Assembly: GCA_002290555.1 (NCBI GenBank)
Contig: NEUK01000001.1
Coordinates: 1 to 34,018 of the forward strand
DNA: 34,018 nucleotides
From: Spartobacteria bacterium AMD-G4
Lineage (GTDB): Bacteria > Verrucomicrobiota > Verrucomicrobiia > Chthoniobacterales > Terrimicrobiaceae
Direction of reading: 5' to 3'
Shown here one piece after another: positions 26,455-30,156 of this stretch; position 1 is the stretch's first letter; the number at the start of each line of letters is the position of its first letter. Below the pieces are notes generated by a model. The model did not search any database. It was not told the origin of the DNA and saw only the letters and a program-made list of their open reading frames with translations. The position numbers were made by a program, and so were the translations under genes.

Positions 26455-27567
26455 TCAGCGTTTCGCAAGTCGGGAGAAAAGCCAAAGTCCCAGGCCAAAG
26501 AAGACGAAATTGGGAATCCAGATCAGGAAGTGGGGGTATGCGGCAGGACTTCCCCGGAAGGTATCCGCCATGAGAATGAAGAAGAAGTAGCTGAAGGCCA
26601 CGACGAGGCTGAGGGCGAATCCCACAGAGGTCTCTTTGCGATGGGTCGTGATGCCAAGTGGAATGGCGATAAGGGCAAAGGCGATGCAGGATAGTGAGGT
26701 GGAGAATCGTTTGTTGAGTTCCACAAGCATCTCCTGCCGCTTCTTGCCCTCGGCCCGCGTATAGGCTGCGTAAAGTTCGGGAAGAGTGTAGGAGCTGAGT
26801 CGGCGGTTGTTTTGGAATTCCTTGAAAAACTTGTCGAGAGCGAGGGGGAAGACGCCTTCCTTCATCACGATGCCTTGGCGGATTTTCGAAAAGTCCTCGC
26901 CGTCCTTTGAGTCGCGTTGCTCGAAGCGGGCATCGAACAATTTGAAAAGGAGGCGCGAGTTCGCTACATCCGGTGTCAGCGCTCCCTCTCTGGCGAAGAT
27001 CATTTTGGAAACACGCGACTCGTCGTCGAGTTCGAACACGAGAATGTCCCTGAGTTGGTCGCCTTTCTTTCCGCCCACATAAACGCGTCGGTCGGGAAAG
27101 GCATCCACCACCTCGTCGGCCCGGAAGAGCGCGGCGGGATTGCTCGTGGCCATATCCACCACCGCGCGGGTCATCGCTTGCTCGGCGCGCGGAGCCACCT
27201 CGATATTGATCCAGAAGCAAAGGATAGTGAGCACAATGGAGATCACAAAAACCGGAGCACTCACGCGCGGGACACTCACGCCATTTGACTTGAGTGCGAT
27301 CAACTCGCTGTCTGCCGACATGCGGCCGAAAACCAGGAGGATGGATGTGAGAAATCCCCAAGGGATCGTGAAGGTCAGGGAAAATGGCAATACCAGTGCC
27401 ATGAACCCGAGGACTGTCAGGATAGGAACATCCGGGTTGTTCACCAAAATGTTCAGCAACTCGCGAAAAATATTTCCGAGGACCAGAACCAGACTGAGGA
27501 TCAGAATGCCAAGCCCCGCCGTGACGAGGATGCTGGTAGCCACATGGCGGTCGATGATCTTTATCAT
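26455..27567 (-). CDS. lptF: LptF/LptG family permease (lipopolysaccharide export)
   Basis: 370 residues in the YjgP/YjgQ layout: three N-terminal transmembrane helices, including PFSLTFTIPWGFLTSILLVFGRMSADSELIALKSNG (a family hallmark), a periplasmic beta-jellyroll region (about 125-265), and three C-terminal helices. Such permeases pair with LptB2 and LptC to lift LPS from the inner membrane to the periplasmic bridge. Only one permease is seen here, and LptF and LptG cannot be told apart with certainty by eye. It lies 15 bases after accA, within the long minus-strand series. Confidence 0.85.
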   Translation of the reverse strand: MIKIIDRHVATSILVTAGLGILILSLVLVLGNIFRELLNILVNNPDVPILTVLGFMALVLPFSLTFTIPWGFLTSILLVFGRMSADSELIALKSNGVSVPRVSAPVFVISIVLTILCFWINIEVAPRAEQAMTRAVVDMATSNPAALFRADEVVDAFPDRRVYVGGKKGDQLRDILVFELDDESRVSKMIFAREGALTPDVANSRLLFKLFDARFEQRDSKDGEDFSKIRQGIVMKEGVFPLALDKFFKEFQNNRRLSSYTLPELYAAYTRAEGKKRQEMLVELNKRFSTSLSCIAFALIAIPLGITTHRKETSVGFALSLVVAFSYFFFILMADTFRGSPAAYPHFLIWIPNFVFFGLGLWLFSRLAKR

Positions 27568-27582
27568 TCTGCAGTCGGGATT

Positions 27583-28539
27583 TTACTCCTCGAAGACGCC
27601 CATCTTTCGGAATTTGTCGTAGCGCGCGCGGAGGAGTTTATCAACGGGGCATTTGATGAGAGCCTGCAGCTCTTGAACAATCGCCGATTTGAGATTTTCA
27701 GCAGCTTGCTCGGGATTGCAATGCGCGCCACCGGTCGGCTCTGGGATGACGCCGTCAACCAAGCCCATTTTCAGCAGGTCGGGCGAGCTCAGCTTGAGGG
27801 CTTGGGCGGCCTCGGGAGCGTGCTTGCGGTGTTTCCACAGGATGGCTGCGCAACCCTCGGGACTGATGACCGAGTAGTAGGCGTTTTCAAGAATCAGGAC
27901 ACGGTCGGCGACGCCGATGCCGAGGGCTCCACCTGAACCGCCCTCGCCGATCACTACAGAAACTACGGGCGTGCGAAGGATCATCATGTCGCGGATGTTT
28001 ACCGCGATGGCTTCGGCGATGTGGCGCTCCTCTGCCCCGACTCCAGGATAGGCGCCGGGAGTGTCGATGAGGGCAACCACGGGGATTCCAAATTTCTCGG
28101 CGAGCCGCATGAGGCGAAGGGCCTTGCGGTAGCCTTCGGGGTGTGGACTGCCGAAGTTGCGCAGGAGATTCTCCTTCATGTCGCGCCCTTTTTGCTGGCC
28201 GATCACCACGCAGCGGATGCCGCCGATCGATGCCAGCCCCCCTGGCATGGAGGCATCATCGCCAAAGAGGCGGTCGCCCTTGAGCTCGACAAAGTCGGTG
28301 AACGCCATCCGGATATAATCCAAAAAGAATGGACGCGCGATGTGGCGGGAAATCTGAACACGCTGCCAAGCGCTGAGGTTGCCGTAAATCTGGGCGCGCA
28401 TCGACTCCAGCTTGTTCTGCATACCAAGTATCTCTCTTCCGAGGTCGATATTTCGATCTTCGGATTGTTTTTTCAATTCCTCAATCTTCTGCTCGAGTTC
28501 CACGAGAGGCTTTTCAAAATCCAAGGTCTGCTTGTTCAT
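27583..28539 (-). CDS. accA: Acetyl-CoA carboxylase carboxyltransferase subunit alpha
   Basis: 318 residues, normal length. It begins LDFEKPLVELEQKIEEL, typical of AccA, with LKGDRLFGDD, GRDMKENLLRNFGSPHPEGYRKALRLM, ALIDTPGAYPGVGAEERH and GEGGSGGALGI in order. The alpha/beta carboxyltransferase moves carboxyl from biotin to acetyl-CoA, forming malonyl-CoA for fatty-acid synthesis. accD is not in the window. It starts seven bases after the LysM gene stop. Confidence 0.97.
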   Translation of the reverse strand: MNKQTLDFEKPLVELEQKIEELKKQSEDRNIDLGREILGMQNKLESMRAQIYGNLSAWQRVQISRHIARPFFLDYIRMAFTDFVELKGDRLFGDDASMPGGLASIGGIRCVVIGQQKGRDMKENLLRNFGSPHPEGYRKALRLMRLAEKFGIPVVALIDTPGAYPGVGAEERHIAEAIAVNIRDMMILRTPVVSVVIGEGGSGGALGIGVADRVLILENAYYSVISPEGCAAILWKHRKHAPEAAQALKLSSPDLLKMGLVDGVIPEPTGGAHCNPEQAAENLKSAIVQELQALIKCPVDKLLRARYDKFRKMGVFEE

Positions 28540-28546
28540 GAGCGTA

Positions 28547-29392
28547 TTATTTAATGGTGACCGAGGTGCCGGATTTCACGAGAGCATAGATTTCGTCGAA
28601 ATCGGATGGGCTCAGAATGATTCCCGATGGCTCCTGTGGGGTTGATCCGTCGGCTGGCGGAGTAGGCGCAGTGCGGAGAACAACATTGCCGGGGCGAATG
28701 AGAACCGTGCGCTCGGCCTCGGCGTAGTCCTTCGCCCCGAAGGCGACACTCACATCTCCTTTGCGGGCGACGCGGTCGGCGACCTTCGCTTCGAGTTCGC
28801 CCTTGGCCGCTTGTCCGCTCAGGGTCATGGAAACTGGGTTGTATTCTTTTAAAAAAGCCCCTGCGTTCATGAGCGATACAGTCGAGGCCGTGCGGTCGAT
28901 CACCATTGTCGTGTCAGCGACGGGAATCAGCAATTGCTGGCCGATCTGAAGGTTGATGGATGTCATTTCATTCGCCCAATAGATCAACTCCGAGTTGCTC
29001 TTGAACTGCGACTTGATGCGATCCAGCGAGTCGCCCTTTTTTACTGTGTAAAGGATGGTCGAGGGAGTTGCGGTGGGATCACGGAGAAGCACAAGATTGA
29101 TGCGGCCGAGAGCCGCGCGCGCCTCAGCAGCCTTCGGGGAATCTGGATGGCTATCGAGATGGGCTGCGATGGCATCGCGCGCCTCCACGGTATTTTGTGC
29201 AAGGATGGCCTTGAGGGAATCGAAGGCCGCCAGAGCGGGGTGGGGAGTTGGTGCCGGAGTCGGAGTGGGAGCAACCGTCTGCTCCACGACATCCAGATTC
29301 TTCTCTTTGTAGTAAAGTTCGTAGATGAAGTATCCGCTGCCACCCAGAATCGCAGCTATGAGAAACAAAATAGTGAGTGCTTTGATGAACAT
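28547..29392 (-). CDS. LysM protein with degenerate L,D-transpeptidase (YkuD-like) domain
   Basis: 281 residues. An N-terminal transmembrane anchor (1-27) and a PTPTPAPTP linker lead to a helical repeat-like segment (53-105), a LysM motif (113-157, YTVKKGDSLDRIKSQF ... LQIGQQLLIP), and a C-terminal beta domain that begins TMVIDRTASTVSL and ends SGIILSPSDFDEIYALVKSG. The latter matches the start and end of YkuD L,D-transpeptidases, whose signature SHGCIRLS is here S-G-I-I-L-S. The whole protein has no cysteine, so it cannot form the thioacyl intermediate. It probably binds peptidoglycan rather than cross-linking it. The gene lies directly before accA. Confidence 0.75.
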   Translation of the reverse strand: MFIKALTILFLIAAILGGSGYFIYELYYKEKNLDVVEQTVAPTPTPAPTPHPALAAFDSLKAILAQNTVEARDAIAAHLDSHPDSPKAAEARAALGRINLVLLRDPTATPSTILYTVKKGDSLDRIKSQFKSNSELIYWANEMTSINLQIGQQLLIPVADTTMVIDRTASTVSLMNAGAFLKEYNPVSMTLSGQAAKGELEAKVADRVARKGDVSVAFGAKDYAEAERTVLIRPGNVVLRTAPTPPADGSTPQEPSGIILSPSDFDEIYALVKSGTSVTIK

Positions 29393-29444: not shown

Positions 29445-29969
29445 TCAGGCAAGGCCGCGCCGTTTCCACTCGGCGACATTTTCGCCTGCTGAACGCTGGA
29501 TCATTTCCATCGAAAACTTGAGCAGGCAGACCTCCCAAACATCGTCCACGCCTGCAATGAGCGCGCGGAAGGGATCATCCCCCTTTTTCATTTCCTCTTC
29601 CATCCGCGAGATTGCCTCGTCGAAAGGCTCATGCACGATTTTCTCCGAGAGGTCGGTTTTTCGGAACTGGAAACCATAGCGCAGAACGCGTGCGGCCGAG
29701 GGATTTGCCTCCAGCCAATCCGCGAAGTCCCGAGCCTCCTCGCCAAAGCCTTCCAGAAGGACCTTGCTGAAATGGGTGGGCGAAAGAATGCGTGGCCGCT
29801 CGGCCTCGATCGTGCCGGAGCGGATTCTCACGGTCTCGACCTCGTCGAGGGGCTCTGTAACGAGGGAAAAATGGAAGCGCGTCGTGCCGAAAGTCTCTAT
29901 GGCGCTTTGCGGCGTCACGACCACGCGGGTGTTCTCCATCGCGTATTGGAAATCATGCTCCTTGAACAT
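29445..29969 (-). CDS. Conserved-looking protein of unknown function
   Basis: 174 residues with no signal peptide or membrane segment. I do not recognise a family. The N-terminal third is beta-rich (TRFHFSLVTEPLDEVETVRIRSGTIE), with RPRILSPTHFSKVLLEGF, and the C-terminal half is helical and charged (FDEAISRMEEEMKK, VWEVCLLKFSMEMIQ). Codon use and placement look like a real gene: 34 bases after the small membrane ORF and 52 before the LysM gene. An internal ATG at residue 11 is an alternative start. Confidence 0.7.
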   Translation of the reverse strand: MFKEHDFQYAMENTRVVVTPQSAIETFGTTRFHFSLVTEPLDEVETVRIRSGTIEAERPRILSPTHFSKVLLEGFGEEARDFADWLEANPSAARVLRYGFQFRKTDLSEKIVHEPFDEAISRMEEEMKKGDDPFRALIAGVDDVWEVCLLKFSMEMIQRSAGENVAEWKRRGLA

Positions 29970-30003: not shown

Positions 30004-30156
30004 TCAATTAGCCGAAGCCGCCGGCTGGACGAGAACCTCCACATCGACTTGTGCCGGCGGGAGCGTAAATCTCACCACCAGGAGGATGAGGTAAAGCAAC
30101 GCAACGGCGGCTGCGAGCCAGGGCAGAGGCATCGTCGCGCGTTCGGTGGAAATCAT
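30004..30156 (-). CDS. 50-residue single-helix membrane peptide
   Basis: A 50-codon frame starting with the ATG at 30156, which overlaps the plsC stop (ATGATT, four-base overlap). It encodes MISTERATMP, one transmembrane helix (about residues 11-29, WLAAAVALLYLILLVV), and a periplasmic or cytoplasmic tail ending VLVQPAASAN before TGA. The overlap and the hydrophobic block argue for a real gene rather than chance. No family is recognised; a small partner of the acyltransferase or a membrane-complex subunit is possible. Confidence 0.6.
   Translation of the reverse strand: MISTERATMPLPWLAAAVALLYLILLVVRFTLPPAQVDVEVLVQPAASAN

Follow-up and report, generated by a model that had tools for sequence, protein, structure and literature searches.

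Within the window (the whole stretch of 34,018 nucleotides of Spartobacteria bacterium AMD-G4 DNA analysed here, from a genome of 1.8 Mb in 74 contigs that is 82% complete), a gene directly upstream of accA encodes a protein that resembles an L,D-transpeptidase stripped of its active site, which raises the question whether this is an enzyme in decay, an enzyme with altered chemistry or a protein maintained for a non-catalytic role. The gene occupies positions 28547..29392 on the minus strand, the strand of every feature given with coordinates below, and its product, with start codons picked by alignment, consists of 281 aa and contains zero Cys. The protein begins with a putative membrane anchor (residues 1-30; 29303..29392), a single hydrophobic helix without a lipobox Cys that spans residues 2-39 in the structural model, followed by a Pro/Thr linker and a TPR-like stretch (residues 52-104; 29081..29239) with helices at 52-58, 61-64, 69-81 and 88-103, TPR_6 being detected in 14 of 39 orthologues. 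The next domain, LysM (residues 115-157; 28922..29050; Pfam PF01476, E 1.4e-9), is the sole curated family that passes its cut-off in this protein (38.2 bits against 20.9) and was found in all 39 orthologues. The remainder (residues 159-281; 28550..28918) adopts, by Foldseek, VIA-align and column counts, a YkuD fold without the catalytic Cys, His or Arg. The sequence-only reading of this locus, which gave exactly the coordinates of the ORF but no strand, had proposed an N-terminal anchor combined with LysM, in agreement with the hydrophobic helix and the LysM match, and a YkuD-like C-terminal domain, which structure prediction and both structural comparisons bear out.

The AlphaFold2 model, the input of which included the 39 orthologues (pLDDT 89.5), begins with one long helix at the N-terminus; a linker leads to four helices (52-103) and LysM, and a beta domain follows from about residue 159. 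The Foldseek list for this model is dominated by YkuD/L,D-transpeptidase entries and headed by three entries for B. subtilis YkuD (E 1e-8), with 4a1i at E 1.1e-8; VIA-align over residues 159-281 yields Z values of 11-12 against LdtMt5, LdtMt1 and YkuD. The Pfam YkuD model (PF03734) leaves the window protein below its gathering cut-off and matches 3 of the 39 orthologues, weakly (best E 0.031), so PF03734 alone is unfit for counting this family. Taken by itself, this silence would favor the view that the C-terminal domain is not YkuD and merely shares a short motif by chance. However, the structural match spans the whole domain, and a profile built from the C-terminal domain only retrieves 47 of 51 intact relatives at E < 1e-3 (best 5e-18), with reversed decoys at E 1.6 or worse, indicating that the likeness is not due to chance; we give a fortuitous resemblance next to no credence. 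A phylum-wide profile search identified full-length relatives in most genomes, and those with an intact motif score against Pfam YkuD at 1e-21 to 1e-23 and also contain LysM. As judged from these sequence comparisons, the protein and the motif-bearing L,D-transpeptidases share common descent.

The intact homologues carry the motif YGIHGTW...SxGC[IV]R, in which H, G, T, S, G, C and R are invariant (100%) across 51 sequences. Encoded at the 3' end of the gene, the stretch SGIILSPSDFDEIYALVKSGTSVTIK aligns with SxGCIRLxNxDxEELFxLVPxGTPVTI of these homologues, and SGIIL (residues 256-260; 28613..28627) stands at the position of the lost SxGCIRL motif; the change from SHGCIRLS to S-G-I-I-L-S in a Cys-free protein had been recognized correctly from the sequence alone. 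Among the 50 orthologues from the order, the column of the catalytic Cys contains Gly in 47 and Cys in none, the His column mostly Arg, Tyr or Phe, with some His and other residues, and the Arg column mostly Val, Gly or Ile, all of these counts hinging on the alignment. The TPTG loop is missing from the Cys-less form as well. Common to the intact and Cys-less forms are the LysM core, Y184, G219, E267, T276, V278 and I280, and newly conserved in the latter are K131, N176, G178 and Y223; position 215 is Arg in most orthologues and Ser in the window copy. The former substrate loop (residues 241-256) is variable among orthologues, which speaks against binding of the stem peptide in the old pocket. 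Given that the fold is retained and that the superfamily has a record of new chemistries, one could envisage catalysis on the YkuD scaffold without Cys, by analogy with the Legionella YafK protein Lpg1514, for which a serine-dependent activity has been proposed (PMC13400389). Such an altered nucleophile is nevertheless very unlikely: in the 50 orthologues, none of Ser, Thr, His or Cys is conserved at the former active site or next to it, the nucleophile column is nearly always Gly, and neither the His nor the Arg column has kept a consistent residue.

A match to the protein was detected in 54 of 58 relatives, a few of these at the level of LysM only, and the aligned set from the order comprises 50 proteins from 12 families (order, class and phylum refer here to the kinship codes of the relatives). 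The catalytic Cys motif is kept in 0 of these 50 proteins and in 0 of 12 from two further families of the class (f15 and f18), so that the Cys-less proteins read from the window's own class number 62. The dN/dS ratio is 0.108 for the whole protein, with a median of 0.115 for the dead domain and 0.05 for LysM; a value of about 0.11 is indicative of selection on a working protein rather than decay. The alternative, a transpeptidase gene that is being lost from the source genome, draws on the small size of that genome and on two 0.9-Mb genomes of the order, in one of which the gene is a pseudogene (G031) and in the other absent (G040), but it is hardly tenable considering the low dN/dS, the unbroken ORFs of comparable length that almost every relative has and the clade-wide absence of the Cys, which makes the loss old. 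The check that had been suggested, whether the Cys is missing from orthologues while the fold persists, thus came out positive for the whole clade, and Cys-bearing orthologues turned up only outside it, so the window copy is not simply decayed.

In other classes, most homologues retain the intact motif (for example, YGIHGTWEPETIGRSVSAGCIRLLN) within the same layout of anchor, linker and LysM. In the class to which the window belongs, the intact form lies upstream of accA in families f55 and f57, the Cys-less form occurs together with the 174-aa neighbor described below in families f15 and f18, and several other families no longer have the gene at the accA locus. In a phylogenetic tree built by a quick search after removal of the motif columns, with SH-aLRT as the only support measure, the 53 sampled Cys-less sequences of the class lie on one side of a branch with support of 100 and a length of 0.86, and the intact sequences of f55 and f57 group with their intact counterparts from other classes. 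The Cys state must have changed at least four times: once in the own-class clade and, outside the class, through three or more further losses (GPGRIRM; DAGRVRF; and APGYFRM/GPGFISM/SDGYIRL, the last three counted as one). A first tree, also the product of a quick search and with YkuD paralogues from the same genomes as the outgroup, gives the own-class clade the same support and requires five changes. The Cys-less versions in other classes (GPGRIRM, TPGYFRM, GPGFISM, SDGYIRL, DAGRVRF) were observed at L081, L103, L106, L109, L110, L149 and L164, and most of these loci are still upstream of accA and keep the IHG motif. Taken together, the sequences indicate a single, ancient loss of the active site in a large group of Verrucomicrobiota. 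Since the accA-linked intact form occurs in other families and classes, the Cys-less form descends from an accA-linked LysM L,D-transpeptidase.

Directly downstream, accA (27583..28539; ACCA, E 1.6e-138) begins 7 nt past the stop of the pseudo-transpeptidase gene and is followed, after 15 nt, by an lptF/lptG permease gene (26455..27567), a spacing that resembles that of an operon. Adjacency to accA was found in 49 of 50 loci from the order, in all 13 intact loci of the class (f55/f57) and, in other classes, in 40 of 51 intact and 9 of 10 Cys-less loci; the association is old and phylum-wide. Adjacency to lptF is limited to genera g1 and g4 of the window's family, and lptF was accordingly rejected as a conserved partner. 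Of the location previously singled out, directly before accA and an LPS-export permease, only the accA part has generality. In one genus of f15 (g29; L098-L101), the Cys-less protein adjoins the 174-aa gene with no accA nearby, and a search of three genomes from this genus returned no strong accA match, only weak accA-like ones (E 1e-3 to 1e-5). At six loci in other families of the class, such as f14, f17 and f22 (L123, L124, L126, L127, L132, L134), a short TPR-like protein of about 110-150 aa is encoded upstream of accA instead. Neither the accA-transpeptidase pair nor this gene is reported in the open-licence literature searched.

On the other side, 52 nt away and directly upstream, lies a gene for a 174-aa protein of unknown family (29445..29969), which holds this position in nearly the whole Cys-less clade. 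The protein has no match in Pfam or NCBIfam, and Foldseek with a model of pLDDT 81 found nothing below E 0.29. We considered the possibility that this gene was gained together with the loss of the Cys and dropped it, because in 2 of 5 tested genomes from other classes (G060 and G076) the gene is present away from the locus, so its position alone is new. The 174-aa gene is preceded by a 50-aa ORF (30004-30156) with one predicted membrane helix (MISTERATMPLPWLAAAVALLYLILLVVRFTLPP...) that overlaps the end of a plsC-like gene.

Relatives from the order with genomes larger than 1 Mb encode 4-17 real YkuD proteins each, and the source genome encodes five. Of the two 0.9-Mb genomes mentioned above, G040 (L119) has zero YkuD genes and no pseudo-transpeptidase gene, and G031 (L065) has one YkuD gene and the broken copy; both retain the 174-aa gene and accA. 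Loss of the gene from YkuD-poor genomes (two genomes from one family) fits a role as a partner of active L,D-transpeptidases.

Combining these observations, we conclude, from the sequences and the structural model and with a probability of roughly 0.8, that the protein is a conserved, non-catalytic, wall-associated pseudoenzyme; for a scaffold or regulator role as such, which is suggested by analogy, the odds appear to be about even. The ancestor, as the intact homologues at this locus show, was an L,D-transpeptidase with LysM and an inner-membrane anchor, the gene for which immediately preceded accA. On the way to the window's order and two more families of its class, the protein lost the TPTG loop and its three catalytic residues, Cys, His and Arg, with the anchor, LysM and the YkuD scaffold retained under purifying selection. 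The resulting protein most likely bridges the inner membrane and the glycan: LysM would bind the wall, and the dead YkuD domain would bind the stem peptide or another wall enzyme. Such a tether between membrane and wall would guide the placement of the 4-17 real YkuD enzymes or regulate them in the manner in which dead LytM proteins regulate hydrolases, and co-transcription with accA would hold the protein in step with membrane growth.

A more direct connection, put forward in the sequence-only reading, would be feedback from the wall to lipid supply, with the protein as the sensor and AccA as the route. It derives some appeal from the phylum-wide adjacency to accA, at a distance of only 7 nt in the window, and from the tie between A. 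baumannii LdtJ and outer-membrane lipids (PMC12548408), and we nonetheless regard it as improbable. The cytoplasmic tail of the pseudo-transpeptidase measures about 3-4 residues, which makes direct contact with AccA unlikely; genus g29 of f15 has retained the protein although accA is not its neighbor, and the three genomes searched gave no strong accA match; and the adjacency to lptF is confined to two genera. Adjacency alone is no proof of wall sensing or of control over lipid supply, though such a link may exist, and co-expression with accA is a simpler reading than direct contact with AccA. A broader and distinctly tentative proposal, which we consider rather doubtful, is that the accA-linked L,D-transpeptidase would be an ancestral, phylum-wide module coupling wall and membrane growth that lost catalysis and became a receptor or regulator once in much of the window's class and at least three times more in other classes, so that its main function may never have been cross-linking. 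The accA linkage suggests a way in which the envelopes of these bacteria may synchronise the growth of wall and membrane.

The pseudoenzyme can be compared with several known systems. With the LysM-YkuD enzymes (B. subtilis YkuD and the E. coli LdtE type; PF03734 + PF01476), it shares the fold over residues 159-281, LysM and common descent; unlike these enzymes, it lacks the catalytic Cys, His and Arg, goes unmatched by the Pfam model and adds a membrane anchor and a TPR-like stretch. Searching the open-licence literature for stand-alone, clade-wide dead YkuD proteins yielded none, the nearest case being an extra domain of one Pseudomonas enzyme. In this enzyme, P. aeruginosa LdtPae1, the second YkuD domain has QLGKIR and likewise no catalytic Cys, and peptidoglycan binding has been suggested for it (PMC10434034); however, the dead domain of LdtPae1 duplicates an active one in the same protein, whereas in the window protein the only YkuD domain is dead, paired with LysM and fixed across a large clade. 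In A. baumannii, LdtJ contributes to growth and shape independently of its catalytic Cys, and a genetic interaction ties it to outer-membrane lipid asymmetry (PMC12548408); it is similar as a wall-binding L,D-transpeptidase with a non-catalytic role in growth and shape, and it differs in that it keeps its Cys and is active. A parallel in design comes from dead LytM domains, which are established wall regulators: in DipM (PMC6373972, PMC10336132), NlpD (PMC5533458) and EnvC, a wall-binding module is combined with an inactive enzyme domain, through which active wall enzymes are regulated, and DipM and NlpD also contain LysM. The LytM fold is unrelated to YkuD, and the partners are known for DipM, NlpD and EnvC. 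The occurrence of active and dead forms at the same locus in related bacteria makes non-catalytic roles of transpeptidases directly testable.
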